Positions 7,007 to 59,466 of a stretch of 64,000 bases of DNA are shown here, piece after piece (position 1 is the stretch's first letter; each line of letters opens with the position of its first letter). This DNA is from Magnetospirillum gryphiswaldense MSR-1 v2. Lineage in GTDB: Bacteria > Pseudomonadota > Alphaproteobacteria > Rhodospirillales > Magnetospirillaceae. The notes beneath the pieces were generated by a model. The model ran no database searches. It was not told the DNA's origin and worked only from the letters and a program-made list of their open reading frames with translations. The translations under genes and the position numbers were made by a program. Location: positions 2,464,501-2,528,500 of the forward strand of contig NC_023065.1 of the NCBI RefSeq assembly GCF_000513295.1. The letters run 5' to 3'.

Positions 7007-8203
7007 TTAAGCGCGGGGCCGTACAGACGAGGATGCATCATCGAACTGGCGCAGCGTCATGGTCCCGGCCTCCCTCTGCGTCACTTGGCTTACTATATAA
7101 TCAGCCTTGGCGACCTCCTCTATCGTGCCGCTATCCAGTTTTTCAAGCCCCCCCCCAACATTGATTAGAAAGTGAACGTGGCTCATCTGAGCCTGCATGG
7201 CGACGCTAATATTGAAAGATAATCCGCCCCGACCCGACAGGATGGCTTCGCCGGATGTAATCAGCCGGGACAGCTGTCTCCGCAAAAGTGACACAGCACT
7301 TGCATCGACCAATTTACGGATGGCGCGTAATCGTTCGATATCCGAAGGAGAGCATCCATGCTGCTCGACGCGCATCTGCACCAGCACCATGAGGTTGATC
7401 AAACGCTCCTCGGCATCGGCCACCACCAGATGCAACGCAGCAACCTCCTTACCTCCACCGGACGTCGCAATCCGCGCCAGAAGCTGCTCGACCTGGCGCG
7501 CGACTACGAATGCCTTGTCGATTACCGCACGGGTCTGCCGGTCTCCGCCCTCCTCCTCAACGTCATTGTCGACCGGGCTGACCGAGGCTCGCGCCCCCCC
7601 TGAGGATGGAGGTGGGGCTGGGGGCGCCAGAGGCAGAGCGCCCCCCTGCTGCTCTTGGCGTACCGCCCTTCGCTCGGATTTCGAGATAGCTGAATTCAGC
7701 TGCTCGGCAATTCGGTCCTCCGCCCGGCGAAATGGCCCCTGATAGCCCTTCGCGGACAGCCGCCGTCGGCAACGACCGCGATACATGTCCGTGGACAGGA
7801 AGGGACGCTTGCCGTCCATGGCGCAAACAAGCTTGGCCTGCACCGTCGTGAGAGAGGTTGGCATGGTGATGATTTCGCAGATCCCCGCATCCCGCACCTC
7901 CGCCAGCATCTCATGGGTCCAGTCCCTACCGATGCTGATAATCGGTAGATTATTGAGCGGAGCGGGCATATCCCAGCGGACGCAACGAGCGACAGCCGCC
8001 GCCCCCCCCCCAGGCAAATCATTTTGGATTATGATCAGGTCGAAAGCCTGATGACTTGCCCGGATGGCATAGGCGAGCCCCCCCACATCCGCCAGGAATT
8101 CGAACTCGTGCATCTTGACGCCAAGCAGCAGCTCCCGCATCACCCGCCGCAGACCGTCATCGGCAATTCCAATCAGTCCCCGACAAGCTGAAAGTGTCTT
8201 CAT
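7007..8203 (-). CDS. Degenerate receiver-domain regulator with C-terminal helical domain
   Basis: 398 residues from ATG 8203. Residues ~5-125 have a response-regulator fold pattern, but the usual phospho-acceptor Asp position (after FDLIII) is Gln. A basic linker follows, RGRCRRRLSAKGYQGPFRR, then a Pro/Gly-rich spacer and a C-terminal helical domain with AEERLINLMVLVQMRVEQHG. The same three-part plan recurs at 42462-44039 and 58201-59466, so this is one of three MAI paralogues. The coding strand contains runs of ten G (8002-8011) and nine G (7148-7156), both inside glycine codons. It is transcribed away from the DUF2798 gene. Role unknown; signalling is inferred. Confidence 0.65.
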   Translation of the reverse strand: MKTLSACRGLIGIADDGLRRVMRELLLGVKMHEFEFLADVGGLAYAIRASHQAFDLIIIQNDLPGGGAAAVARCVRWDMPAPLNNLPIISIGRDWTHEMLAEVRDAGICEIITMPTSLTTVQAKLVCAMDGKRPFLSTDMYRGRCRRRLSAKGYQGPFRRAEDRIAEQLNSAISKSERRAVRQEQQGGALPLAPPAPPPSSGGARASVSPVDNDVEEEGGDRQTRAVIDKAFVVARQVEQLLARIATSGGGKEVAALHLVVADAEERLINLMVLVQMRVEQHGCSPSDIERLRAIRKLVDASAVSLLRRQLSRLITSGEAILSGRGGLSFNISVAMQAQMSHVHFLINVGGGLEKLDSGTIEEVAKADYIVSQVTQREAGTMTLRQFDDASSSVRPRA

Positions 8204-8595: not shown

Positions 8596-8761
8596 CACTT
8601 AGCGCGAAACACCCATCAGTGGCGGGCACAAAAAGTAGGTGGGGGCAGAGCTCCTGACCACTGGGCAGGTCGCTCCCGCAAAGAGAATATGATTTAGCGC
8701 TTCCTCGGCCTCAGGATGGAGGCTATCTTTGCCCCGAACCTGCAAAGGACTGGCCGTTCAT

Positions 8762-9724
8762 ATGGGAAATTCTGGCTGCATAAGCTGCGTCGAAAAAGCT
8801 GCGCGGTTAGATCTGGGAGGCACGCTGGCCCAAGCGATATTCCGGAGCCTGCTTGGTGTGATGTCAGGCAGCATGGGCATGGCAGCACAGGGACTGTATT
8901 CCATTGGTGACGCCATCACCAAGAGCCTGACCCTCGCCAGCATCCGAATTTCCAAGATTCCTCCGAGCAAGACTTTTCCGTTTGGGGCAGGAAAGATTCT
9001 GTTCGTTACCTCGCTCATAATCGGAATATCCCTCATCGGGACCGGCGTCTTTCTAGCCAGCACGAGCTTCAATGAGCCGAACACCGTGGGGGCAACGGGC
9101 TCTCTGTTTGCCATCGTCGGCGTCATAGTCTCCGCTGCTTTTAGCGAATTGATGTCGCGCTATCTTTCATGCGTCGCCACGGAAAATGACAATATCGCGC
9201 TCCGTTCTGCGAGCCGTGACAATCGCATTGATGCGATCACCTCCATCGTCGTATTCGCCGGAATCGTTCTTTCCGATGCTGGAATTGCAGCCGCTGATCA
9301 CATCGCTGCGCTCCTCGTCTCCCTAATCGTCATGAATATCGGCAGAATCATCGCTTGGGATGCCATCAAAGGTCTTTTGGACGTCACAGTTCCGCGCGAC
9401 AAACTTGATAAAATCGCCCGCAAGTCACGGGCGACAAAGGGCGTTAGAGAAATCAAGTTGATCCGCGGCCGCAGCCTGGGCGAGTTCTGGGAAATATATA
9501 TGCATGTTTCAATTGACGAGATGCTGACGGTTGCTGAAAGCAACGCCATCGTCAACAGCCTTAGGGAGAATATCCTTGATAGTTTTCCAGAGGTGCAACA
9601 TGCGTGGATCATAACGGTGCCAGACACGAACCGAAATGACGATGTCCCAGATTACTGGGCAGATCATTTATTCGCGGACGCGATAAAACAAGATTCTGCG
9701 TCGCCAAGTCTCCCTTCTGATTGA
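8762..9724 (+). CDS. MamB/MamV-type cation diffusion facilitator
   Basis: About 320 residues from ATG 8762 (AAAGGA upstream). It resembles MamB: an N-terminal CxxC (CISC), then GVMSGSMGM in the place of GLMSGSVAL in MamB, a PFGAGK loop, and ALRSASRDNRIDAI aligned with the MamB segment ending DNRSDAI. CDF proteins are dimeric divalent-metal/proton antiporters. In helix 2 the usual D-x-x-x-D metal site is altered to Q...YSIGD, so one ligand is missing, as in other magnetosome CDFs. The C-terminal cytoplasmic domain is present. It is followed within 30 bp by a CZB gene and then a MamR paralogue. It may correspond to what is called MamV in other strains; that name is not certain. Confidence 0.75.
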   Translation: MGNSGCISCVEKAARLDLGGTLAQAIFRSLLGVMSGSMGMAAQGLYSIGDAITKSLTLASIRISKIPPSKTFPFGAGKILFVTSLIIGISLIGTGVFLASTSFNEPNTVGATGSLFAIVGVIVSAAFSELMSRYLSCVATENDNIALRSASRDNRIDAITSIVVFAGIVLSDAGIAAADHIAALLVSLIVMNIGRIIAWDAIKGLLDVTVPRDKLDKIARKSRATKGVREIKLIRGRSLGEFWEIYMHVSIDEMLTVAESNAIVNSLRENILDSFPEVQHAWIITVPDTNRNDDVPDYWADHLFADAIKQDSASPSLPSD

Positions 9725-12426: not shown

Positions 12427-13492
12427 GAGCATTTTCACATCGAGCGTCCATATCCGTCGTGGGCGAAGAAATTGGCGCATTCCTCGGGCGGAAACAGGTC
12501 GATGAGTTTTCCGATCACGTCCCATAAGGTGTTGATGGTGCGGGCTTGCGCCTTTCGCAGCAGGCTCTTGAGCTTGGCGAAGGCGAGCTCGATGGGATTG
12601 AGGTCTGGGGAGTAGGGCGGCAGATACCGCAGGGTGGCCCCTCGGGCTTCGATGAGTTGCTTGACCCCTGCCACCTTGTGGGCGGGCAGATTGTCCATTA
12701 CGACGATGTCGCCGGGCCGCAAGGTCGGAGCCAGGACCTGCTCGACATAGGCCAGGAAGATCGCGCCATTCATCGCCTTGTCGATGACGAAGGGGGCGGA
12801 GATTCCGTCATGCCGGAGCGCCCCGACGAAGGTGGTCATTTTCCAATGACCGTGCGGCACCGCAGCCAGCAGCCGCTGACCGCGCGGCGCCCGTCCGTAG
12901 CGCCGGGTCATGTTGGTCGATGCCCCGGTTTCATCAAGGAAGACCAAGCGGGTTGGGTCCAGCGCCGGCTGCTCGGCTCGCCAGGCGATGCGTCCTTCGG
13001 CTACGTCGGGACGTTCCTGCTCGGCAGCATGCGCACTCTTTTTTTCAGACTGAGGTCGAGCCGCTCAAGCGTGTTCCACAGGCCGCCGACGCTGATCGAC
13101 ACGCCCAATTCGGCCAGAACCCAGGCGCGCAACTCAGCCAGCGTGGCATCGGGCTCGACCTTGATCTGCGCCTGCAACGCCTCAAGGTGAGCCGCCAGCT
13201 TCTGTCCTGGCCGCCCAGGCCGTGGCTTCACCGTCGTCTCGCCGGTGGCCCGGCGGCGGCCTTGGGCCTTGTAGATGTACGAAACGCTCACCCGGAACAG
13301 CGGCGCCACCTCGTAGGCGCTCATGCCGCTGTCCACAGCCGCCAAAACTCTATCGCGCAAGTCCTGAGAATAGGACTGCCCTGAGCGCCACGTCATCGCA
13401 TCATCCTCGGGAGCGTTGTTACCGAAGATGTTGAATCACAAAATGACCTCAGGGGGAATCCTCTACCGATTCCGCTCGGCGTGAAACCGCTC
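12427..13492 (-). mobile_element. IS630-family element, copy 1 (1066 bp)
   Basis: The element is flanked by TA at 12425-12426 and 13493-13494, the target duplication expected for IS630. Imperfect terminal inverted repeats start GAGCATTTTCACATCGAGCG on one side and GAGCGGTTTCACGCCGAGCG on the other. The same 1066 bp recur at 45870-46935 in the same orientation. A 94-bp piece of the right end is found alone at 63298-63391. Confidence 0.9.
12435..13396 (-). CDS. IS630 transposase in two frames (copy 1)
   Basis: The N-terminal part (13396-13001, 131 aa) has the helix-turn-helix [18 protein letters not shown] and the RPGRPGQKL linker. The C-terminal part (12947-12435, 170 aa) has the DDE core: [19 protein letters not shown] and [16 protein letters not shown]. 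The parts are in different frames with a junction near 12950-13005. Because copy 2 shows the same split, the shift is either programmed or was inherited from an already broken parent. Confidence 0.8.
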
Positions 13493-15912: not shown

Positions 15913-16249
15913 CAAGCAGGAACTCGGCCTCGGCCACTACGAAGGTCGAGGGTGGCGCGGATTCCACCACCACGCAGCCTTCTGCATCGCCGCCTACGGA
16001 TTCCTCATCACCGAGAGGAGTCTGATTCCCCCCTCAGGACTTTGCTCCGCCCCGATCCGCCAAGCGCCTGCCTTGCCCGACGGTTACCGACCCCGAGGAT
16101 CCGCCCGTCCGGCCTGAGCGCCACGTGACGACGTCGATCACCACCATACGGATTCGATTGACACGGGCACTCGCCCGACGATTACCAAGATGTCCTTGTT
16201 GCCAACGGCCAATTATTGAATATCGTTTGCTTATGACACAGTAGAGCTA
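15913..16249 (+). pseudogene. IS701-type element, 3' end remnant
   Basis: This 337-bp stretch matches the 3' end of the IS701-type element at about 61066-61400 with few differences. It encodes the transposase tail (LGLGHYEGRGWRGFHHHA) and the non-coding right end. The rest of the element is absent. Its right edge meets the end of the minus-strand gene at 16247. Confidence 0.8.
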
Positions 16250-16861
16250 GTCAGCGACCAGCGTCAGCTCTTCCTCGATCTTAGCCAGCTCGACCAGGAT
16301 TGCCGCCTGCTGCTTGAGCAAGTTCTCCTTGCGACGCTTGAGCTGGGCAACGCGCTTCGCGGGGTCAGGGAGATTGGCGGGCGATTCTGACGCGACCTTG
16401 CGCGCCATCTCACGCTTGAATGTGACGATCTCCTCGCGCTTCACCGTCGGCCGCAACAGCGGCGGCTCGGTTTGCCTGGCCAGGGTCAATTGCTCGTCGG
16501 TCAGGGTCGTGAATTGGTAAATGGTCGCGTAGGACGGCGGCAGCTCCTCGAGCAGCAGGCGCTTGCCATCGATGGCCTCGGCCACCTTGCGCAGCTGGTA
16601 ACTCACCTGGTAGCCGAATGGCAGTTGGTTGTCGACCATGGCCTGATACTCGCCGTGCTCAAGCCGTTCGGCTGCCTGGACGAGATAGCGGCCGATGGTC
16701 AGGAAGGTGTCCTGGGCATCACGCCACAGGCGCGAGATCTCCTCGACAAATTCCTCGCGCCGATCAAGCGTCAACACTGTGCCCTCAAGGCGGGCAATGC
16801 GTTCATCGCGCGATAGATGTCCGCGAGCTTGGGCCTTGGTGACTTGACGGAACCCGCTCAT
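16247..16861 (-). CDS. Plasmid-type partner protein of ParA, coiled-coil
   Basis: 204 residues from ATG 16861, two bases after the stop of the ParA-like gene. Highly charged and helical. The C-terminal third (PAKRVAQLKRRKENLLKQ) is a predicted coiled coil. The N-terminal part has KAQARGHLSRDERIARLEG. I do not recognise a named family; placement behind a ParA ATPase suggests a partition or DNA-binding partner such as a KfrA-like or ParB-substitute protein (inference). Its 3' end abuts the IS701 remnant. Confidence 0.55.
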   Translation of the reverse strand: MSGFRQVTKAQARGHLSRDERIARLEGTVLTLDRREEFVEEISRLWRDAQDTFLTIGRYLVQAAERLEHGEYQAMVDNQLPFGYQVSYQLRKVAEAIDGKRLLLEELPPSYATIYQFTTLTDEQLTLARQTEPPLLRPTVKREEIVTFKREMARKVASESPANLPDPAKRVAQLKRRKENLLKQQAAILVELAKIEEELTLVAD

Positions 16862-16863
16862 GG

Positions 16864-17493
16864 TCAAATCCCCATCTCGGCACGTACGAACGCCCACACA
16901 CCAGCGACATACTCGCTCCCCCTCCCGCCCTTAAGCTCGAGCAGGCCGATGCCGCGGGAGGAAGTGAACGCGATATCTTCGTAATCCGGCACCTCGATGG
17001 GGCAGACCCTGCCCTCCTTGACCAGGATAGCCTTGGCTTCGACAAAACTACGCGCGCGCGGCTTGACGCGGTTGAGCACGAAAGCGGCCTCGACTTGATT
17101 TTTGCGGACGAAGCGCATCCAGGGGCGGACGGAATCCAGGTCGTCGTCCGACTGGCCGGTCGGGATCAGCATCAGCGTGGCCACGTTTGCCAGCATCCTG
17201 AAGGACTCGGGGTGGTCCTCGATGGAGGGCGGCGTATCGATGATCAGGAGGTCGTGGACCTGGATGCCGTCCAGGGCGTCCTTGACGTCATCCTTAGCCA
17301 TGGTCGATTCGTAGTGCTGAATGGGCGCCATGTCGTCAGGGCGCTTGGAATACCACTTGGTCAGACTGCGCTGCATATCGAGGTCTAACGTCGCCACCGA
17401 CAATCCGTCGATAGCCGCGGCGACGGCGAGGTTGCGCGATAGCGTGGCTTTGCCGATGCCGCCCTTGGGCCCCGAGATCACAAGCCTGCGCAT
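16864..17493 (-). CDS. ParA/MinD-type ATPase
   Basis: 209 residues from ATG 17493. Deviant Walker A (SGPKGGIGKATLSRN), A' region (VATLDLDMQRSLTKW) and Walker B (DLLIIDTPPSIED) identify a small ParA-type partition ATPase like those on plasmids and ICEs. The Walker A has Ala before Thr where Thr-Thr or Ser-Thr is usual. It forms an operon with the gene at 16247. A perfect 34-bp palindrome lies 63 bp upstream of its start. Confidence 0.8.
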   Translation of the reverse strand: MRRLVISGPKGGIGKATLSRNLAVAAAIDGLSVATLDLDMQRSLTKWYSKRPDDMAPIQHYESTMAKDDVKDALDGIQVHDLLIIDTPPSIEDHPESFRMLANVATLMLIPTGQSDDDLDSVRPWMRFVRKNQVEAAFVLNRVKPRARSFVEAKAILVKEGRVCPIEVPDYEDIAFTSSRGIGLLELKGGRGSEYVAGVWAFVRAEMGI

Positions 17494-17555
17494 TGCTGTA
17501 CCCCCATTTCGTATTATGACGTTGTGGGGTATAACAGCATGTGGTCGCGCGGGGA

Positions 17556-17589
17556 ATTCCAAACCTAAGACATGTCTTAGGTTTGGAAT
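17556..17589. promoter_or_regulatory. Perfect 34-bp palindrome upstream of parA-like gene
   Basis: Each half is 17 bp (ATTCCAAACCTAAGACA and its reverse complement), with no central spacer. It lies in the gap between the end of the gene at 17649 and the ParA start at 17493. It could be an autoregulatory operator, a centromere-like partition site or a transcription terminator of the upstream gene; no T-run follows on the minus strand. Confidence 0.65.
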
Positions 17590-17648
17590 ACAGAAAGGGC
17601 CGGAGGCTTTTGCCATCCGGCCCAGTGTCCGCCCGCAGAAGGCGAAGC

Positions 17649-17963
17649 TCAGTCGTCCTCGTCCTTCTTGTGGGTCTTGCTGGGTTTGCGTTTTAGAAGC
17701 TGGCTCATAACATCGGCCTGAGAGCTTGCCCTGGGGGCTTCGGCCAATGGGGCTGCCGGCAGTGTCGGTGTCGGTGCCGACGCGGCTGCGGCGGGCTTGA
17801 TGGACTCCACGGGAGGGGGCGCAGGAAGGGGTGTCGTGAGGGCGGCGACAATCACGCTGTCGTCCTGCTCCATCTCCCTCGCCAATTTTGTGATATCCGT
17901 AGCTGCGCCAACAATGCCTCTGATGATGGCAAGGGCCGCCTCTTTATTGTCACTACCGCTCAT
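17649..17963 (-). CDS. Small Ala/Pro-rich MAI protein
   Basis: 104 residues from ATG 17963. The N-terminal ~30 residues (SGSDNKEAALAIIRGIVGAATD) form an amphipathic helix region. A Pro/Ala-rich middle and a very charged tail (KRKPSKTHKKDEDD) follow. The N-terminus resembles the truncated ORF at 44043 (AKDDNKIAALAMIQGIIDSATE). No known family. Confidence 0.55.
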   Translation of the reverse strand: MSGSDNKEAALAIIRGIVGAATDITKLAREMEQDDSVIVAALTTPLPAPPPVESIKPAAAASAPTPTLPAAPLAEAPRASSQADVMSQLLKRKPSKTHKKDEDD

Positions 17964-18001
17964 TATGTCATTGTCTCTGCCGTGAGTGACCGTCAAGCCG
18001 C

Positions 18002-19138
18002 GCGGCCTGCCGGTTTCCTTTTTCCGCTTCCGGTGGAAGTGAGGCGTTTCAAATCGGCGGTGTCGCGACAGAAAGGCTAGACTTGCCATGGGACAGCGAG
18101 TTCACTGTGTACATGTATACGCTGATGCAGGCGGCGCCAAATATGCCGATAGCGACAAGTCCGGGTCCAATGCTAATGGTCAGGGGGGGGGCCAAAAGCG
18201 CTCCCGAGAGCAATTTCGATGCCGCGAGCTTCATTCCGGTCATGGAGGGAGGGTACATGGGGACATCCAAGCCGTGTTGTGATGCTGATCAGTATACCAT
18301 AGGACGAGATTAGCACGTCAAATTTTTGTTTGGGTTGGGCTTTGGCGTAAGCATCCGGTGAAAGCCGGAGGCCCCGCCGTAGCTTTCAGGCGGGGTGGGC
18401 GGCGATGCGGGCCAGCACATCGGCCAGCCAGGCTTGCGGATCAATATCGTTCATCTTGGCAGTGACGATCAGACTGTACATGGCCGCCGCTCGCTGCCCG
18501 CCACGCTCGGAGCCGGCGAACAGCCACGATTTCCGGCCCAAGGCGATTCCGCGGAGGGCGCGTTCAGCCGCATTGTTCGACAGGCAGACACGGCCATCAT
18601 CAAGGAAGCGGGTGAAGGCGGGCCAGCGCTTGAGCACGTAGTCCATCGCTTTGGCGAGGTCATTGCCGCGCGAGAGCTTTGCGCGTTGCTCGCGCATCCA
18701 GCTTTCCAGATCGGCGACCAAGGGGGCGCTGAGTTCCTTGCGGACGGCGCGGCGCCGTTCGGCCGTCTCGCCACTGATGGTCCGCTCGATCTCGAACAGG
18801 GCGTCGATGCGCCGGACCGCCTCCAGCGCCAGCGGCGAGATCACGGCCGTGGTCTTGCCCTGCGCCTTGCGGCGGGCGCTCTCGGCGAGATCGGCCATGA
18901 CGAAGAATGTGCGGCGGGCATGGACCCAGCAGGCCACTTCCAGGATCTGACCCGGCTCGCGGTCGGGCGCGCAGAGCTTGTTGTAGCCGCCATAGGCGTC
19001 GGCCTGGAACAACCCGGCATAGGTGGCCAAATGCCCCTGGGGATGCTCACCACCCCGGTCGCGGGAATAGTAGAACATGGCCGCTGGTGGAGTTTGCCCG
19101 CCGAAGGGGCGGTCGTCGCGCACGTAGACCCAACATCG
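18002..19138. repeat. 1.14-kb direct repeat, copy B
   Basis: Matches 4045-5182; the only difference seen is nine instead of ten G at 18183-18191. It joins the region downstream of the ParA operon to an IS66 tnpC. The right edge lies inside tnpC at the point where the two copies become different IS66 variants. Confidence 0.85.
18049..18243 (-). CDS. Possible small membrane protein, poly-G interrupted in copy A
   Basis: 64 codons from ATG 18243 encode one strongly hydrophobic segment (ISIGPGLVAIGIFGAACISV) after a short basic start (KLAASKLLSGALLA). The frame passes through the C9/G9 tract; in copy A (about 4092-4287) ten G shift the frame. No clear Shine-Dalgarno site is seen, so the call is weak. 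Confidence 0.3.
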   Translation of the reverse strand: MTGMKLAASKLLSGALLAPPLTISIGPGLVAIGIFGAACISVYMYTVNSLSHGKSSLSVATPPI

Positions 19139-20558: not shown

Positions 20559-20712
20559 TCAAAGCAGCACTCACCTGCGGTTCTCACCGGATGCTTACGC
20601 TCGGCGCCACGGATTTCTGTCTCATCTTCGTTCCCTTCGGTCACTACGATGAGCCAGAAATCCTCCGTTACGCAAATGCCCCGATTTGTTCCACGGGTGC
20701 TGACGTCAGACA

Positions 20713-20803
20713 CACCCGTTCCTTCATTCTGGACAGGACGGCTCCGACGCCGAGCGGAACGCCATGGGATCCGGACATGATGCGCTTACCATAGCGGATC
20801 AGG
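20713..20803 (-). pseudogene. Fragment of the receiver-hemerythrin gene
   Basis: About 91 bp on the minus strand are nearly identical to 43768-43858 within the gene at 42462. They encode SLIRYGKRIMSGSHGVPLGV and then SRMKERV. The fragment directly adjoins the stop codon of the coiled-coil gene at 20804, marking a past rearrangement. Confidence 0.8.
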
Positions 20804-22039
20804 CTACTGCGACAAGTTGCCTGCGGCGATGGCCAGCACTTGGGCCGCCTTGCGCCGACGGTCATCGACATCGGCGGAGGTGAAGGTGACATCCTGATAG
20901 CGGCCCTGTACGGCCCGGCGGTCGCCATCGTCGCCGAAAGCGATGGTCAGCACCGCGTTCGGATACATGGAATGGGCGAGGCTGACCACCCGGTCCACCA
21001 CTTCGTGGGGAGATGCCGGCCCACTGGCGGTGTCCAAAGGAATGGCGGTGGCGAGCCGGATATCGAATACGGCGCCGAGGCCGGTGCGATCTTCGGCCGA
21101 GGTCTGGGTTTCGACCACCGCGGTAATCTGAACCGGAAACAGCGCGCCCGACACGGCGCCGCCATACACCACCGGAACACGATGTTCTGCCACAATCTCG
21201 CCGACACCACTCGGTTCGGCATGGAGCGCCCTTCCGGCGGCCAGTTCGCGTCGGGCCAACTCGGCCGCCGCCCGCGCCTTCGCGGCCGTTTCCTCCGCAG
21301 CAGTCCGGCCCTCGGCGACCACCTGCATGCGCTCCTGTAATTCGGCGTTGCGGGTCCTCTCTTCGACCAATTGCGCGTCGAGGCTACGGGCTTTTTCCTC
21401 AATGCCGATCAGGGCGGATAAATGTTTACTCTGGGAGTCTACCTGAGCCCGCAACTGCCGAACTTGATCCAACGTCAGGGTCAGTTGCCCAATGGCCTCG
21501 GCCGCATCCGACCGGGCGGCCTCGATCTGCTCAGCCGCCACCGCGCGAGTGGCCTCGACCTGCTCTGAGGCCGAGCGGCGAACATCCTCGACCGAGCGGC
21601 GCAGGTCGTCGATCTCGGCGCTCAGCGTTTCGGTCCGAATGCGAGCCGCCACAAGGTCCTGATCGGCATGGTGCCGCTCCGCCTCAAGGGCGTCACGAAT
21701 CACGGCCATGATGGCATCCCCGTGATCGCCGATGCCTGACATAGGGACAGGGGCCCGTACCTTCTCGGCCAGCGCTTCGGGTTCGGGTTTGGGAAGGGAA
21801 GGGAAGGGGGTATCGAAGGCCGCGGTGGGAAGGCCGTCCTCGTCGCCCTCACATTCCTGCAGCAGAGCGACGATGTCCGTCTCCTCCATGGCTGCGGGCT
21901 GTTGGGCTATCAACGCCTGGTCCGTGTTGTCGTCCGGCAACGGTTCCACCTGCCCGCTGACGATATGAAGGCGCCTGGGCATTGGTTCGTCACCGTCAAA
22001 CGGAAGGGGGTCCGCAATATTTTTCATGACCGAGCCCAT
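20804..22039 (-). CDS. Coiled-coil protein, unknown function
   Basis: 411 residues from ATG 22039 (a second ATG at 22027 is possible). The N-terminal ~100 residues are acidic and Pro-rich. Residues ~110-290 form a long Ala/Glu/Arg-rich coiled coil (VEATRAVAAEQIEAARSDAA). A C-terminal globular domain of ~110 residues (VVYGGAVSGALFPVQITAVV onward) follows. No transmembrane segment or catalytic motif is visible. It lies downstream of mamU on the same strand, but ~320 bp and an IS66 scrap separate them, so co-transcription is unclear. Confidence 0.6.
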   Translation of the reverse strand: MGSVMKNIADPLPFDGDEPMPRRLHIVSGQVEPLPDDNTDQALIAQQPAAMEETDIVALLQECEGDEDGLPTAAFDTPFPSLPKPEPEALAEKVRAPVPMSGIGDHGDAIMAVIRDALEAERHHADQDLVAARIRTETLSAEIDDLRRSVEDVRRSASEQVEATRAVAAEQIEAARSDAAEAIGQLTLTLDQVRQLRAQVDSQSKHLSALIGIEEKARSLDAQLVEERTRNAELQERMQVVAEGRTAAEETAAKARAAAELARRELAAGRALHAEPSGVGEIVAEHRVPVVYGGAVSGALFPVQITAVVETQTSAEDRTGLGAVFDIRLATAIPLDTASGPASPHEVVDRVVSLAHSMYPNAVLTIAFGDDGDRRAVQGRYQDVTFTSADVDDRRRKAAQVLAIAAGNLSQ

Positions 22040-41963: not shown

Positions 41964-42413
41964 ATGTTTGACTTCACCGATGATTTGTCGGTCGGGAACG
42001 AGGCTATCGATGCGGATCACCGCGCATTCTTCGAGGTGGCGCGGCTCATCCATGAATCTGTGCATGGAGGTAAACACGATTTGATCATCCTGAGCGCCCT
42101 CCTCATGCTGGATGAGTATGTTGAAGGGCACTTCTATCGCGAAGAGAAGGCGATGAAGGCTGTGGGATACCCACGGCTCGCCGGACATCGTCATCGCCAT
42201 CGGGTCTTCCGTGGACGCGTCAGGGCAATTGTCGAAGCCTATCGGGAAGGCACCATGTCGGTTGCCGACAACCTTTCGACACTCGTCGTGCAATGGCTCC
42301 GAAGCCACATCACGAATGACGATCTCCAATACAAGACTTGGATCACCCACTCATCCGTCGATTCCCGACCGCTGGTCTATCTTACCATGGAAGCGGAGCT
42401 TGCGCACCGATAA
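41964..42413 (+). CDS. Bacteriohemerythrin
   Basis: 149 residues from ATG 41964. The di-iron hemerythrin motifs are complete: AIDADHRAFF (first His), YVEGHFYREEKAM (His and Glu), RHRHRVF and WLRSHITNDD (last His and Asp). Single-domain hemerythrins bind O2 and may deliver or sense it. The next gene, 49 bp downstream, also contains a hemerythrin domain, so the two are probably co-transcribed. Confidence 0.9.
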   Translation: MFDFTDDLSVGNEAIDADHRAFFEVARLIHESVHGGKHDLIILSALLMLDEYVEGHFYREEKAMKAVGYPRLAGHRHRHRVFRGRVRAIVEAYREGTMSVADNLSTLVVQWLRSHITNDDLQYKTWITHSSVDSRPLVYLTMEAELAHR

Positions 42414-42461: not shown

Positions 42462-44039
42462 ATGATGGCGCGCCCGCCGTTACGCGGCCCAATTGATGTT
42501 CTGGTAGCGGTAGCGATGCCGGCGGTATGCAGACTTCTCGTCGGCCTAATTCGCGAGATGGGCATCAATGAAGTGACGGTCGTTGATTCGGTCGATTTCG
42601 CCACCCTGAAACTCCGTCATGCCAGCATAACCTTCAATCTGATTCTCTGCGACAGACTGGGCGGTGCGGGCCACCTCGACCTCTTGAAATTGGTACGCTG
42701 GGGCCGGCACGGTCTTGCTCCGTCGATCCCAGTTATCTGCGTCGGTGAGGAATGGACCGGTGACGAACTGCTTGCCAATCGTGACGCCGGGGCGACGGCG
42801 ACCTTAGCCTTGCCGCTCACGAAGCACACGCTGAAGGTGGCGGTTGAAACTGCGATTGCTGAGCGGCGTGAGTTCGTAGACACCCCCACATTCCGTGGCA
42901 TCGATCGCCGGCATAGCCGTATCAAGGGCTATAAGGGACCGTTCCGCAGGGCGACCGATGCCAACCGCGCCAAAGCCCACGGATCACAAGTTGGCCAGGG
43001 GAATGTTGGGCCAACTGAGCCACAAGAAATCTCCGCTTACGATGAAGAATTGAGCGTTCCTGTCAAACCGGATTTCGGCTGGTCGAAAGCGATCGAGACG
43101 GGAAGAAACGACATCGACAGCCAGCATCGCGGCATCATCGACATCATGAACGATCTAAACGAGGTCCCCGACACCGAGGATGGGGACGGCACCAAGGTTG
43201 AAAGGGCTCTTATCGCACTAAAGGACTACGTTAAGATACATTTTTCCCACGAAGAACAGTTGATGGATAGCTTTGATTATGACGACCGCAAGCGGCACAA
43301 GAAGCTTCACTCGGCGTTTGTAGCGAAAATTGAGACCCTAAAGGCGGGCAGCCTCACTTCGCCTGACGTCCGTCGCAAACTGCTTGGCATCGTCTACAAT
43401 TGGCTGATGTCGCACATCACCTGCGTCGATCGAATCATGATCGCCCAATTGAACGGCGAACAGGGTTCCTCGGGGATTGACCCCAATGAGAAGCAGACGA
43501 CCATCGTCATCGACGACGCCCTCATGATCGTCCGCGATATCCAAAAGCTGACCGTGAAATTGTCCGGAATGGACGATGGCCCCCGAAAGGTGGCCTTGTG
43601 CCGGCGGATCGCCGAAGAGACCGAGCGTCTGATTAATCTGATGGGGTTGGCCTGCGATCGCATCGAGATGTCTGGGTGCAGTACCTTTCACATACGTCGC
43701 CTCGGCGACATCCGAGCCGCCGTCAATTTCAACGCCGACTGCATGGCCCAAGACGCCGCCCGTAGCCTGATCCGCTATGGCAAGCGCATCATGTCCGGAT
43801 CCCATGGCGTTCCGCTCGGCGTCGGAGCCGTCCTGTCCAGAATGAAGGAACGGGTGCAACTCCTGATCCATGTCATCGGCGGCCACGACGCCATGAGTTT
43901 GGCGGCGAAAGCCGCCGTAACGGAGGCCATGGACATCGCAGATGCCGTTCACGCGCTGGAATCCAAGATGTCGGCGGGACTTACAGAAATCCATCTATTG
44001 GCAACAGCAAACTGCTACGACCAGACGGGGCGCGATTGA
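42462..44039 (+). CDS. Receiver-hemerythrin regulator with C-terminal helical domain
   Basis: 525 residues from ATG 42462. A receiver domain (~1-125) retains the phospho-acceptor position (FNLILCDRLGG). The basic linker RGIDRRHSRIKGYKGPFRR follows. A hemerythrin domain (~205-330) has DIDSQHRGI, HFSHEEQLM, RHKKLHSAF and WLMSHITCVD. The C-terminal domain (~345-515; AEETERLINLMGLACDRIEM) is shared with the proteins at 7007 and 58201. A stand-alone output of combined phosphorylation and O2/iron sensing is inferred. Part of this gene recurs at 20713-20803. Confidence 0.8.
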   Translation: MMARPPLRGPIDVLVAVAMPAVCRLLVGLIREMGINEVTVVDSVDFATLKLRHASITFNLILCDRLGGAGHLDLLKLVRWGRHGLAPSIPVICVGEEWTGDELLANRDAGATATLALPLTKHTLKVAVETAIAERREFVDTPTFRGIDRRHSRIKGYKGPFRRATDANRAKAHGSQVGQGNVGPTEPQEISAYDEELSVPVKPDFGWSKAIETGRNDIDSQHRGIIDIMNDLNEVPDTEDGDGTKVERALIALKDYVKIHFSHEEQLMDSFDYDDRKRHKKLHSAFVAKIETLKAGSLTSPDVRRKLLGIVYNWLMSHITCVDRIMIAQLNGEQGSSGIDPNEKQTTIVIDDALMIVRDIQKLTVKLSGMDDGPRKVALCRRIAEETERLINLMGLACDRIEMSGCSTFHIRRLGDIRAAVNFNADCMAQDAARSLIRYGKRIMSGSHGVPLGVGAVLSRMKERVQLLIHVIGGHDAMSLAAKAAVTEAMDIADAVHALESKMSAGLTEIHLLATANCYDQTGRD

Positions 44040-44042
44040 CCC

Positions 44043-44180
44043 ATGGCAAAAGACGACAACAAGATTGCCGCACTCGCCATGATCCAAGGGATCATCGACA
44101 GCGCGACCGAACTGGCGGCGGTGGCGAGTGTGCGCGCCGGAGAGAAAGTAGGCCATGGATCGGCGCCGTTGTGGTGCTGA
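44043..44180 (+). pseudogene. Truncated paralogue of the small Ala/Pro-rich protein at 17649
   Basis: 45 codons from ATG 44043, starting three bases after the regulator stop. The first ~25 residues (AKDDNKIAALAMIQGIIDSATE) match the start of the protein at 17649-17963. The frame then runs into the left end of an IS21 element and stops at 44180. The gene was cut by that insertion. Confidence 0.55.
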
Positions 44181-45870: not shown

Positions 45871-46935
45871 AGCATTTTCACATCGAGCGTCCATATCCGT
45901 CGTGGGCGAAGAAATTGGCGCATTCCTCGGGCGGAAACAGGTCGATGAGTTTTCCGATCACGTCCCATAAGGTGTTGATGGTGCGGGCTTGCGCCTTTCG
46001 CAGCAGGCTCTTGAGCTTGGCGAAGGCGAGCTCGATGGGATTGAGGTCTGGGGAGTAGGGCGGCAGATACCGCAGGGTGGCCCCTCGGGCTTCGATGAGT
46101 TGCTTGACCCCTGCCACCTTGTGGGCGGGCAGATTGTCCATTACGACGATGTCGCCGGGCCGCAAGGTCGGAGCCAGGACCTGCTCGACATAGGCCAGGA
46201 AGATCGCGCCATTCATCGCCTTGTCGATGACGAAGGGGGCGGAGATTCCGTCATGCCGGAGCGCCCCGACGAAGGTGGTCATTTTCCAATGACCGTGCGG
46301 CACCGCAGCCAGCAGCCGCTGACCGCGCGGCGCCCGTCCGTAGCGCCGGGTCATGTTGGTCGATGCCCCGGTTTCATCAAGGAAGACCAAGCGGGTTGGG
46401 TCCAGCGCCGGCTGCTCGGCTCGCCAGGCGATGCGTCCTTCGGCTACGTCGGGACGTTCCTGCTCGGCAGCATGCGCACTCTTTTTTTCAGACTGAGGTC
46501 GAGCCGCTCAAGCGTGTTCCACAGGCCGCCGACGCTGATCGACACGCCCAATTCGGCCAGAACCCAGGCGCGCAACTCAGCCAGCGTGGCATCGGGCTCG
46601 ACCTTGATCTGCGCCTGCAACGCCTCAAGGTGAGCCGCCAGCTTCTGTCCTGGCCGCCCAGGCCGTGGCTTCACCGTCGTCTCGCCGGTGGCCCGGCGGC
46701 GGCCTTGGGCCTTGTAGATGTACGAAACGCTCACCCGGAACAGCGGCGCCACCTCGTAGGCGCTCATGCCGCTGTCCACAGCCGCCAAAACTCTATCGCG
46801 CAAGTCCTGAGAATAGGACTGCCCTGAGCGCCACGTCATCGCATCATCCTCGGGAGCGTTGTTACCGAAGATGTTGAATCACAAAATGACCTCAGGGGGA
46901 ATCCTCTACCGATTCCGCTCGGCGTGAAACCGCTC
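45870..46935 (-). mobile_element. IS630-family element, copy 2 (1066 bp)
   Basis: Same length, orientation and terminal repeats as 12427-13492, flanked by TA at 45868-45869 and 46936-46937. The transposase is again in two frames: 46839-46444 (HTH part) and 46390-45878 (DDE part with [10 protein letters not shown] and [12 protein letters not shown]). The translated parts show no difference from copy 1. The two copies form 1066-bp direct repeats around the entire mamAB operon. Confidence 0.9.
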
Positions 46936-57091: not shown

Positions 57092-57571
57092 ATGGAACAG
57101 AACAATACACTTCCTGAATGGAACGATAAGTTCTCGGTAAACGTTGATGTCATCGATGAAGACCATCAGGCGTTCTTTCGCCTGGCGGCGCTGATGCAAG
57201 ATGTGGTATCCAGTCCGAGCAATGAACAAACCTATCTGATCGAAACGGCCATCAACATCCTTGAGGAATATATCGAGGGCCATTTCCTACGAGAGCAACT
57301 CGCCATGGCCAAAATCGACTACCCTCAATTGGCCGAACATATCAGCGCCCACGACGCCTTTGACGATCGCGTCACCCTTCTCATCAAGGAATACCGGACG
57401 AACCACGATCTTACGACCATCCTCGCTCTGGCGCGATTGGTCGCTGACTGGCTTACTCAACACATTCAGGGCGTAGATTTACAATATAAAGGACTTCTAA
57501 CCAACGAGAATGTGGATAACCGCGCCTTGGTCTATCTGGCAGCAGGCCTGGATCCAGTGTTTGCTCCATAG
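57092..57571 (+). CDS. Bacteriohemerythrin
   Basis: 159 residues from ATG 57092 with GAGG upstream. Di-iron motifs: DVIDEDHQAFFRLA, YIEGHFLREQLAM, EHISAHDAFDDRV and WLTQHIQGVDLQYK. Closest in the window to the hemerythrin at 41964 (same C-terminal NVDNRALVYL in place of SVDSRPLVYL), so the two are paralogues. O2 binding or sensing is inferred from the family. Confidence 0.9.
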   Translation: MEQNNTLPEWNDKFSVNVDVIDEDHQAFFRLAALMQDVVSSPSNEQTYLIETAINILEEYIEGHFLREQLAMAKIDYPQLAEHISAHDAFDDRVTLLIKEYRTNHDLTTILALARLVADWLTQHIQGVDLQYKGLLTNENVDNRALVYLAAGLDPVFAP

Positions 57572-57722: not shown

Positions 57723-58208
57723 ATGGCTCCCCCTTCTATACAGTCTGTCGCTCTGGCGAACCTGCAGAAATCCCGTGAATTCCTGCTAAAAGTTCTGGAC
57801 GTCTGCGGCAAGCTTCCAGACGCGCCGGGGACGCCTTCCGATCAGGCAGTGATTGCCGCCGTCGCTCAATTGGCGCAGATGACCGAAGCCGTCATTCAGG
57901 GCGGCGGCATTGTCCAAACGGCGGAAACATCTCCGGACAATCTCGGCTCCCCGGATACGAAGACCAGGCGCCAGGAGGTCATCTTGCAAATGTGTCTTCA
58001 GCAGAGTGAACAGCACTGGCTGCAGGCCAGACGCCTCAAATCCGAGAATGACGCTCTCCGCCGCGGATTAAAACAGGTCGAGGCCGATGTGGTCGCTGCC
58101 AGATTGGCTCTGCCATCGTATCCGGCGGCTCCGCCAAAACCGTCCCCGGTGCCGAAGCCCGTAGCCGCCGCACGCCCCCCCGAACGACAGAAACTTCAGA
58201 TCAAGTAG
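57723..58208 (+). CDS. Unknown helical protein with Pro-rich C-terminus
   Basis: 161 residues from ATG 57723 (AAGAG upstream). Helical N-terminal two thirds, including a predicted coiled coil (SENDALRRGLKQVEADVVAA), then a Pro/Lys tail (AAPPKPSPVPKPVAAARPPE). No signal peptide or membrane segment. It converges with the regulator gene on the other strand, overlapping by ~8 bp. Confidence 0.5.
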   Translation: MAPPSIQSVALANLQKSREFLLKVLDVCGKLPDAPGTPSDQAVIAAVAQLAQMTEAVIQGGGIVQTAETSPDNLGSPDTKTRRQEVILQMCLQQSEQHWLQARRLKSENDALRRGLKQVEADVVAARLALPSYPAAPPKPSPVPKPVAAARPPERQKLQIK

Positions 58209-59466
58209 TCCCGCCACCGTTGACACGAGACCGCAGGAGGTCCGCGACTGCGTTCTGACTGGCTGCGCCTCCGTCCTCGACAGGGCGCACACCCCGCCGC
58301 TGCCGCTTATTTCGTTCAAGGTCGACCAAGCTAAACTGATCAGCCTCCATTTGCTGAAGCTTTCCGATTCCTTCCCATGCGAAATCCAGCTTCCGCTTCA
58401 TGCTCTCGTTGGTTTTGCGCCCCCCCAGAATCACTTCGATTTCCTCCACCGACGCCAATCGCTCCCGCAGCTGGTCGCTGCCACCCAACACAATCTCCCC
58501 GCCGTACAGAAACCTCTCCATATCGGTAACGATGGCATCCAGCCTGGAATTAGACATCTGCCGCAATATATCGGTGAAGAGAGTCGTCAACTTCTTGATA
58601 TTCTGCCGCACAGCCTCAACTTGAGGCCGACCAGAGTTCTCGTCGAGATCCACCAGTTTTATGAGATTAACAAGCCGTTCAGCCGCCTCCATGATCTCAG
58701 AGCGCACTTCTCCTCTCGTCTGCTCGTCGTCGGCCGCATGCAAGGCTCGCTTCAAATGCTCAATTCTGGCCGCAATTTCATTCACGCCGATGAAGATGAT
58801 AGATGTTTGGGAATCAAGCGACTCGTCATTCTCGAGCACCGCCTTGGGGTGCAAAAGCCCATGCCGCTTCGAGGCTGAAGCCGCATAAACGGAGAAACGC
58901 TCTCCACTCTTTCCGGGCAAGTCCACAGTCCCAGCGGAAGGGGAGGAGGCCGATAGAGACGGGGCCGGCAGAGCCTGGTCGGTGACACGACGGAGCGCCC
59001 CATTGTAAGTATGGGGCACGGAGTTCCGCCGACAAGGCCCCCGATAGGTCGCATTCGAGATCATCTCCCGATGGTCGCCCAGCGCCCGATTGACGTTTTT
59101 TAGCATGCTGCGGGTATTGATAGGCAGGGTTACGATGCAATTCGCGCCAGAATTTCGCATCGCCGCCAAATCGCTGACATCCATATGACCTGTGATGCCA
59201 ATTATCGCTCCAACCGCAGCCCCCTCGGGCGTTTCCATGCGGATGCACCGAACCATATGGAGGGGTTCGTCCGTTGTTTTGCCTGCGCAAACTATGACAT
59301 CATAAGCGGTCGATGATACCAATTGAACGGCATCGGCGACGTCCCCCGCCGTCTGCACATCGGCAAACCCGATCTGATGCAAGGACGTCACGATCAATCC
59401 ACTGAGAAAATCGTCCTTCGCAACGACAAGGCAGGCCTTGCCCAAGAAGGGAGTATTCAAAGACAT
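58201..59466 (-). CDS. Degenerate receiver-domain regulator with C-terminal helical domain
   Basis: 421 residues from ATG 59466. Receiver-like domain (~1-125: KACLVVAKDDFLSGLIVTSL; YDVIVCAGK, with Ala at the phospho-acceptor position). The linker RGPCRRNSVPHTYNGALRR follows, then a Ser/Pro spacer and a C-terminal helical domain (AAERLVNLIKLVDLDENSGR). Third member of the family seen at 7007 and 42462. Ten G (59477-59468) stand directly before the ATG and are the only possible Shine-Dalgarno sequence. Confidence 0.65.
   Translation of the reverse strand: MSLNTPFLGKACLVVAKDDFLSGLIVTSLHQIGFADVQTAGDVADAVQLVSSTAYDVIVCAGKTTDEPLHMVRCIRMETPEGAAVGAIIGITGHMDVSDLAAMRNSGANCIVTLPINTRSMLKNVNRALGDHREMISNATYRGPCRRNSVPHTYNGALRRVTDQALPAPSLSASSPSAGTVDLPGKSGERFSVYAASASKRHGLLHPKAVLENDESLDSQTSIIFIGVNEIAARIEHLKRALHAADDEQTRGEVRSEIMEAAERLVNLIKLVDLDENSGRPQVEAVRQNIKKLTTLFTDILRQMSNSRLDAIVTDMERFLYGGEIVLGGSDQLRERLASVEEIEVILGGRKTNESMKRKLDFAWEGIGKLQQMEADQFSLVDLERNKRQRRGVRPVEDGGAASQNAVADLLRSRVNGGGTT

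Follow-up and report, generated by a model that had tools for sequence, protein, structure and literature searches.

A family of four proteins of Magnetospirillum gryphiswaldense MSR-1 (P1–P4) is best read, from sequence comparison, as Cle-type CheY-like proteins without phosphorylation control, to which a hemerythrin domain and/or a new helical domain has been added. P1, P2 and P3 are encoded in the window, by which we mean the whole stretch of 64,000 nucleotides analysed (positions 2464501–2528500 of the single 4,365,796-base contig NC_023065.1). The window contains mamK, mamE, mamH, mamV, mamC, mamD and mamU, each above its curated cut-off. The three genes and the domains of P1 are located as follows.

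42462–44039, plus strand: P1, 525 amino acids; pseudo-receiver, Arg-rich linker, hemerythrin and helical C-domain
42498–42857, plus strand: CheY-like receiver of P1, residues 13–132 (AlphaFold2, Foldseek and residue table), with Asp64 kept and Leu117 at the position of the switch lysine
42864–42959, plus strand: Arg-rich linker of P1, residues 135–166, FRGIDRR..YKGPFRR..D, homologous to the c-di-GMP-binding peptide of CleD
43077–43451, plus strand: hemerythrin domain of P1, residues 206–330, with H222, H260, E264, H279, H283, H318 and D323
43482–44012, plus strand: C-domain of P1, residues 341–517, five helices predicted by AlphaFold2, with the ERLINLM core
7007–8203, minus strand: P2; pseudo-receiver (Gln at the Asp position), Arg-rich linker and C-domain
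58201–59466, minus strand: P3; pseudo-receiver (Ala at the Asp position), Arg-rich linker, C-domain and the tail AASQNAVADLL

Paralogy and overall architecture

The receiver halves align pairwise by BLASTP with E values of 1e-22 (P1/P2), 2.7e-12 (P1/P3) and 3.9e-13 (P2/P3), and the C-terminal halves with 5.9e-20, 0.002 and 0.016 for the same pairs. With 300 shuffles of each pair, the true scores were never reached in either half. The C-terminal link to P3 is weak pairwise and firm by profile, P3 orthologues outside the model scoring 1.9e-73 to 7e-30. The start of P3 at 59466 agrees with its orthologues, whose proteins open with MSLN. On these alignments P1, P2 and P3 are paralogues. The initial annotation had given all three a receiver-like N-terminus, a basic linker with RG..RR and YxG[PA][FL]RR, and a C-terminal region that aligns around an AEERLINLM-like core, and each of these assignments holds. 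All of P1–P4 share the linker residues G, RR, Y, G, RR and D, and the core reads ETERLINLM, AEERLINLM and AAERLVNLI in the three proteins.

The view of three paralogues in one island stands for the window and has to be widened by a fourth member. P4 (L025:7036-8304) was found by a whole-genome search with P1, some 240 kb past that gene and about 220 kb past the window. It is surrounded by frames that by eye resemble transposase genes, and a CetB-like PAS gene ends 28 bp before it. In genome G038, which we take to be strain AMB-1, orthologues of all four are found within 15 kb after mamB-S-T-U-V. At 20704–20811 (minus strand) of the window, inside a 92-residue open frame, a fragment of 36 residues is 89 per cent identical to P1 433–468; it is the remnant of a second P1-like gene.

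The AlphaFold2 model of P1 (mean pLDDT 70.5) consists of the receiver (13–132), a disordered linker, a four-helix hemerythrin unit and a five-helix C-domain.

The receiver and its phosphorylation site

The fold of the receiver is that of CheY. CheY is the best Foldseek match of the P1 receiver model (E 5.7e-5, TMt 0.87) and comes first in the PDB with a profile of the four receivers (E 1.2e-14). The residue table confirms the earlier observation that, among the window proteins, only P1 has the phospho-acceptor Asp, P2 having Gln and P3 Ala. The Asp of P1 is not part of a complete phosphorylation site, because Leu replaces the switch Lys and Ala-Met replaces the acidic pair of β1. Conservation was counted in 46 proteins that have both receiver and C-domain; duplicates with identical last 60 residues were removed, near-identical orthologues were kept and C-domain hits below 150 residues were dropped. 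The switch Lys is found in none of the 46 and the phospho-Asp in 14, so that none of them has the full active site by which response regulators are phosphorylated (acidic pair with Asp and Lys). The 14 proteins that keep the Asp are exactly the 14 that have a hemerythrin domain. This points to some remaining use of the residue, and the Asp may still matter in the receiver–hemerythrin–C proteins. As the receivers are pseudo-receivers, an ordinary phosphorylated sensory system is unlikely.

Six canonical receiver-linker proteins (L183–L188) from MamK-negative Rhodospirillales share the receiver family and the linker. They differ in that Asp and Lys are both intact (6/6 each) and in that their frames, of 164–238 residues, have neither hemerythrin nor C-domain. 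In four of the six the C-terminus is an SQ-type tail (for example LSQAEVEALL or LSQSELDALF). A further protein, L026:5943-7040 (minus strand), has a receiver with the switch Lys, a partial Arg-rich linker and then, by eye, a cNMP-binding-like domain, an architecture that recalls the ARR-cNMP combination mentioned in PMC5677366.

The arginine-rich linker

The linker had been treated as an unnamed feature of the family; it is a known module. With a profile of five family linkers, the single PDB match at E ≤ 1 is 6SFT (E 1.5e-6), a CleD peptide that binds cyclic di-GMP. The same entry is the sole match at E ≤ 1 for the P1 linker alone (E 0.0045) and is also found with a receiver-plus-linker profile (E 1.9e-5). 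By sequence, then, the linker is homologous to the arginine-rich cyclic-di-GMP-binding module of Cle proteins. In these proteins a tandem [Y/F]xGP[D/E][R/K]R peptide binds cyclic di-GMP and an Arg in helix 4 of the receiver contributes, according to Nesper 2017 (PMC5677366). The same study describes the phosphorylation residues of CleA and CleD as dispensable and both proteins as docking on FliM.

Each of the four linker arginines is present in 45 of the 46 receiver-C proteins, the closing Asp in 44 and the helix-4 Arg in 41. A relaxed tandem motif ([YFH]xGxx[RK]R) is matched by 45/46. The strict motif ([YF]xGPx[RK]R) occurs twice in 28/46 over whole sequences (27 with a narrower search window), and among P1–P4 only P4 has it twice. 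The deviation is at the Pro, in the first repeat of P1 (FRGIDRR) and P2 (YRGRCRR) and in the second repeat of P3 (YNGALRR). The helix-4 Arg is R107 in P1–P4, equated with R113 of CleD by its place in helix 4. Features of c-di-GMP binding are thus kept while most of those of phosphorylation have been lost, as Cle-type control would lead one to expect.

CheY-like fold, tandem Arg-rich linker and helix-4 Arg are the features on which we assign the family to Cle, in which it would form a new variant. It differs from the described Cle proteins in the loss of the switch Lys from all 46 proteins and of the phospho-Asp from 32, in the hemerythrin inserted in P1, and in the unnamed five-helix C-domain. 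It also differs in that its fused forms occur almost only in MamK-positive genomes, with genes beside mam genes and PAS/MCP pairs. The combination of receiver-linker with hemerythrin has already been seen, since the nine ARR proteins reported in PMC5677366 carry cNMP-binding, hemerythrin or adenylosuccinate-synthetase domains. In the titles and abstract openings of a mostly open-access literature, we found no description of Cle-type proteins in a magnetosome island.

The hemerythrin domain and neighbouring hemerythrins

The hemerythrin domain that had been proposed for P1 scores above both curated cut-offs (92.3 bits over 84 for NF033749; 55.8 over 25.3 for PF01814). Its seven residues in the pattern H-H-E-H-H-H-D, which we take to be the di-iron ligands, are invariant in five orthologues, and the domain is complete-looking. 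Stand-alone bacteriohemerythrins neighbour P1 and P3.

41964–42413, plus strand: stand-alone bacteriohemerythrin, 48 bp upstream of P1 (NF033749, 93.4 bits over 84)
57092–57571, plus strand: stand-alone bacteriohemerythrin, two genes from P3 (NF033749, 91.9 bits)
57723–58208, plus strand: 161-residue protein without known domain adjoining P3, a recurrent neighbour

The domain of P1 is set apart from these by its fusion between linker and C-domain. The order pentapeptide protein, hemerythrin, 161-residue protein and P3 recurs in L096. In the whole genome (G000), hemerythrin is matched 32 times and CheZ four times. L025:1357-2850 (minus strand), at a distance of about 4.2 kb from P4, combines a GGDEF domain (TIGR00254, 154.9 over 37.4 bits) with a C-terminal hemerythrin (TIGR02481, 83.1 over 51.75) and is a candidate oxygen-linked diguanylate cyclase.

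The C-terminal domain

Modelled alone (AlphaFold2, 17 sequences), the C-domain forms five helices with a pLDDT of 81.6 and a pTM of 0.67. Foldseek gave no PDB match at E ≤ 0.001; the best E value is 0.13, and the TM score does not exceed 0.42 among the 50 matches listed. Because the alignment behind the model is shallow, the domain could still have a known fold. A Pfam scan of 27 members returned 24 families at E ≤ 1, each from one member only and none in common, and NCBIfam has no family for the C-domain of P1, P2 or P3. Neither scan found a DNA-binding or enzymatic domain. The domain is therefore, as first proposed, unnamed in Pfam and NCBIfam, and it matches no known common output domain there. 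Weak sequence hits in the PDB (designed constructs, E 0.007–0.07; the CheA entry 6y1y, 0.74; 2ixn, 0.85; 4z0t, 1.9) were judged to be noise from helical composition. Our guess is that the domain serves oligomerisation or docking.

Standalone C-domain proteins, with frames mostly of 190–270 residues, are present in 11 MamK-negative genomes. The genes around standalone copies looked unrelated at the eight loci read, which include two from MamK-positive genomes.

C-terminal tails and a small partner protein

P3, P4 and several other members end in a short SQ tail (AASQNAVADLL, ADSQDAAFKRL, AASQADVM..), which P1 and P2 of MSR-1 lack. A small protein family carries a similar tail.

58204–58266, minus strand: C-terminal tail of P3, AASQNAVADLLRSR.., like the tails of canonical receiver-linker proteins (LSQAEVEALL)
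17649–17963, minus strand: small protein of 104 residues with the tail ASSQADVMSQLLKRK, intact copy
44043–44180, plus strand: truncated N-terminal remnant of the small SQ-tailed protein (match 44043–44144), directly after P1 and before an IS21 transposase gene

The CheZ tails of relatives mostly read (D/N/S)QAEIDxLL or QAEIDxLLASFD, and FliM of MSR-1 carries NQDEIDSLL. This resemblance suggests that the SQ tail is a CheY-docking peptide, and the scoring supports this for part of the family only. Against a threshold of 5.55 bits (the 95th percentile of 327 background tails), the CheZ-tail score is high in 1/14 receiver–hemerythrin–C, 5/32 receiver–C and 3/12 hemerythrin–C proteins (9/58 fused proteins) and in 0/17 standalone C-domain proteins. 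The tail of L069 scores 17.5 bits, exceeding all 327 background tails. The tails, together with an ERxxN motif, had raised the idea that the C-domain is a CheZ homologue. It is not supported: hhalign against 20 CheZ sequences gave a probability of 1.2 per cent and CheZ appeared neither in the Pfam hits nor among the Foldseek matches listed.

The small SQ-tailed protein is found in 20 of 317 genomes, all MamK-positive, and in several of them its gene is directly behind a receiver-C gene. In the window (16247–18089, minus strand) the SQADV-tailed small protein is followed by the gene of an ATPase that by eye is ParA-like and then by that of a 204-residue protein. Some bacteria rely on ParA-like proteins to position their chemoreceptor arrays.

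Gene neighbourhoods

Neighbouring genes were identified with a home-made gene finder and seed BLAST rather than taken from curated annotation. At L108 (strain SS-4), L111 (PR1) and L087 (genome G038), the P1 orthologue is the last gene after a PAS gene, a short MCP gene and the gene of a 459-residue hemerythrin/receiver protein, with gaps of 14–30 bp. At L172, the copy nearer mamK in G038, the order is PAS, MCP (both by NCBIfam), hemerythrin and, after 0.9 kb, P1. The PAS–MCP pair of L172 fits Amb0995/Amb0994, matched by description and not by locus tag, in which an MCP without sensory domain beside a PAS gene is implicated in magnetotaxis (PMC12442639; PMC6056624). PAS–MCP pairs of the bipartite CetB/CetA chemoreceptor kind, to which Amb0994/Amb0995 belong, share operons with P1 orthologues; the family members themselves are soluble CheY-like proteins and not receptors. 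Beside P1–P3 in the window no chemoreceptor-like gene was found. Orthologues of P2 and P4 adjoin mamV or are one gene away from it (in the window, L086, L089, L097 and L098), the copy near P2 being as follows.

8729–9724, plus strand: mamV (NF040994)

The 459-residue protein near P1 orthologues (L108:1902-3281, L087:8031-9410, L172:7068-8447) has the order hemerythrin, receiver, single YxGPERR and helical region, and a protein of the MSR-1 genome (L189) resembles its second half by eye. Two IS630-family transposase copies (window 12435–13396 and 45878–46839, minus strand) flank the central island; the former scores 140.2 bits over 100 and the latter has the same listed translation start. The described MtxA has a signal peptide and other domains, and identity with it was set aside on that description.

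Distribution across genomes

Among 317 genomes of Rhodospirillales, MamK is present in 36, the C-domain in 37 and both in 25. Proteins that fuse the C-domain to receiver or hemerythrin, counted by reading the loci and leaving out one 191-residue hit of G015, occur in 24/36 MamK-positive and 1/281 MamK-negative genomes (Fisher p 4e-26, kinship ignored). The association is also seen within the two genera that hold both kinds of genome, where 15/15 MamK-positive and 0/15 MamK-negative genomes have fused proteins (p ~6e-9; g1, 4/4 vs 0/9; g16, 11/11 vs 0/6). The sole MamK-negative exception, G011, is 80 per cent complete; its congener G012 has MamK and only standalone C-domain forms. Linkage alone does not explain the co-occurrence with mamK, because in G038 copies lie about 1.4 and about 2.4 Mb from the island mamK. 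The C-domain is absent from 11 MamK-positive genomes, which are of other families, and so is not required for carrying magnetosomes. In 398 genomes drawn across the phylum it was found (E ≤ 1e-6) in two only, both of the source genome's family. Scanning the named-genome collection for the P1 family produced 179 pattern matches, of which 15 were confirmed as loci; those that belong to named isolates come, we believe, from magnetotactic strains. The proposed link to magnetosomes thus survives for the family, which tracks the magnetosome genes. It does not extend to the C-domain by itself, whose standalone copies in MamK-negative genomes exclude a domain exclusive to magnetosome-bearing genomes.

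Published deletions

Two large deletions in the island are relevant, A3 and A4, which cover P1 and P2 as placed by position and not by tag. A3 (mgr4079-4088, 9.8 kb) includes two hemerythrin-like genes and, judged by gene numbers, is situated between mamGFDC and mamAB (PMC3197154); in the window, a hemerythrin gene and P1 are found between mamH (38.8 kb) and mamC (48.1 kb). A4 (mgr4106-4146, 27.8 kb) follows mamAB, on the side of P2. Magnetosomes are reported as normal in both, and the A2 deletion, on the side of P3, was not obtained (PMC3197154). This fits a role of P1 and P2 outside biomineralisation, and a tie to magnetosome formation, as the first reading might imply, is not indicated. The main text of PMC3197154 uses neither "motility" nor "swimming".

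Discussion

Taken as a whole, we lean towards a role in motor control or taxis, in which the family would act as phosphorylation-independent CheY mimics that read c-di-GMP, with an oxygen input in P1. Magnetotactic Rhodospirillales would have taken a lineage of Cle-type CheY-like regulators into their magnetosome island, the receiver keeping the CheY fold and losing phosphorylation control. The retained Arg-rich linker probably binds a cyclic-di-GMP dimer. In P1 the di-iron hemerythrin inserted after the linker would bind oxygen; the five-helix C-domain of all members would probably mediate oligomerisation or docking. Several members, and the small partner, end in an SQxxV tail reminiscent of the peptides with which FliM and CheZ bind CheY. 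Cyclic di-GMP, together with oxygen in P1, would expose or hide the CheY-like surface, which would either compete with CheY~P at FliM or act at the neighbouring PAS/MCP receptor. Oxygen and cyclic di-GMP would in this way set the swimming reversal during magnetic alignment. The PAS–MCP operons of P1 orthologues point to taxis, and oxygen-tuned regulation of the motor or of a chemoreceptor in magneto-aerotaxis is the likely role.

Several observations count against the motor or taxis role. The linkers of P1, P2 and P3 each deviate in one repeat, and all 14 receiver–hemerythrin–C proteins keep the phospho-Asp. P1 and P2 lack the SQ tail, the CheZ-tail score is high in only 9/58 fused proteins, and the C-domain has no profile link to CheZ. 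The window has no recognised chemoreceptor-like gene beside P1–P3, and 11 MamK-positive genomes do without the C-domain. In M. gryphiswaldense, magnetic alignment is described as unimpaired in bipartite-receptor deletions (PMC12442639).

The retained Asp and the CheY-like fold would also suit ordinary response regulators, with Asp64 of P1 phosphorylated by an island or chemotaxis kinase, output through the C-domain, and P2 and P3 as decoys. The universal loss of the switch Lys, the missing acidic pair of P1 and the conservation of the linker instead make this very improbable. Should the hemerythrin sense oxygen and the C-domain act on magnetosome proteins or on gene expression, the proteins would be oxygen-dependent regulators of magnetosome formation. 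Their position among mam operons, their tracking of mamK and the frequent neighbour mamV agree with such regulators, but neither a DNA-binding nor an enzymatic domain came up in Pfam or NCBIfam, magnetosomes were wild-type in the A3 and A4 deletions (PMC3197154) and the neighbours include chemoreceptor, PAS and hemerythrin genes; we consider it improbable.

A C-domain that is a divergent CheZ-like phosphatase or a sink for CheY~P, so that the proteins drain CheY~P, is about as improbable. The CheZ-like tails of some members, L069 above all, speak for it; the negligible profile probability, the failure to find CheZ in Pfam or among the Foldseek matches listed, and the tailless P1 and P2 speak against. 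Finally, the genes might be hitch-hiking remnants without present function. Transposase genes are all around, the window holds both the C-domain fragment and the truncated partner, and the deletions showed no magnetosome phenotype (PMC3197154). Against this stand four intact open reading frames, linker arginines kept in 45/46 proteins and the copies far from the island mamK in G038, and we give remnants very little weight.

The initial annotation had suggested an undescribed magnetosome-linked sensory system. The unnamed C-domain and the tracking of mamK agree with this; the linker, being a Cle module, and the pseudo-receivers do not. A bolder extension is that the island contains a dedicated module for control of the flagellar motor, in which four pseudo-CheY proteins (reading c-di-GMP and, in one, oxygen), the new helical domain and the SQADV-tailed partner would set reversal while cells swim in magnetic alignment, together with the island's PAS/MCP receptor of the Amb0994/0995 type. 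We put this forward tentatively and regard it as rather doubtful.

More than half of the M. gryphiswaldense island is said to lack obvious function (PMC3197154), and the coupling of oxygen sensing to magnetically aligned swimming is debated (PMC12442639). A readout of c-di-GMP and oxygen in the same genes, with an Amb0994-type receptor beside them in relatives, offers a concrete molecular hypothesis, and the Cle family gains an unnamed helical domain. The family may help to link oxygen to magnetically guided swimming. If the island does contain the dedicated motor-control module, it would be a package for steering as well as for building the magnet.
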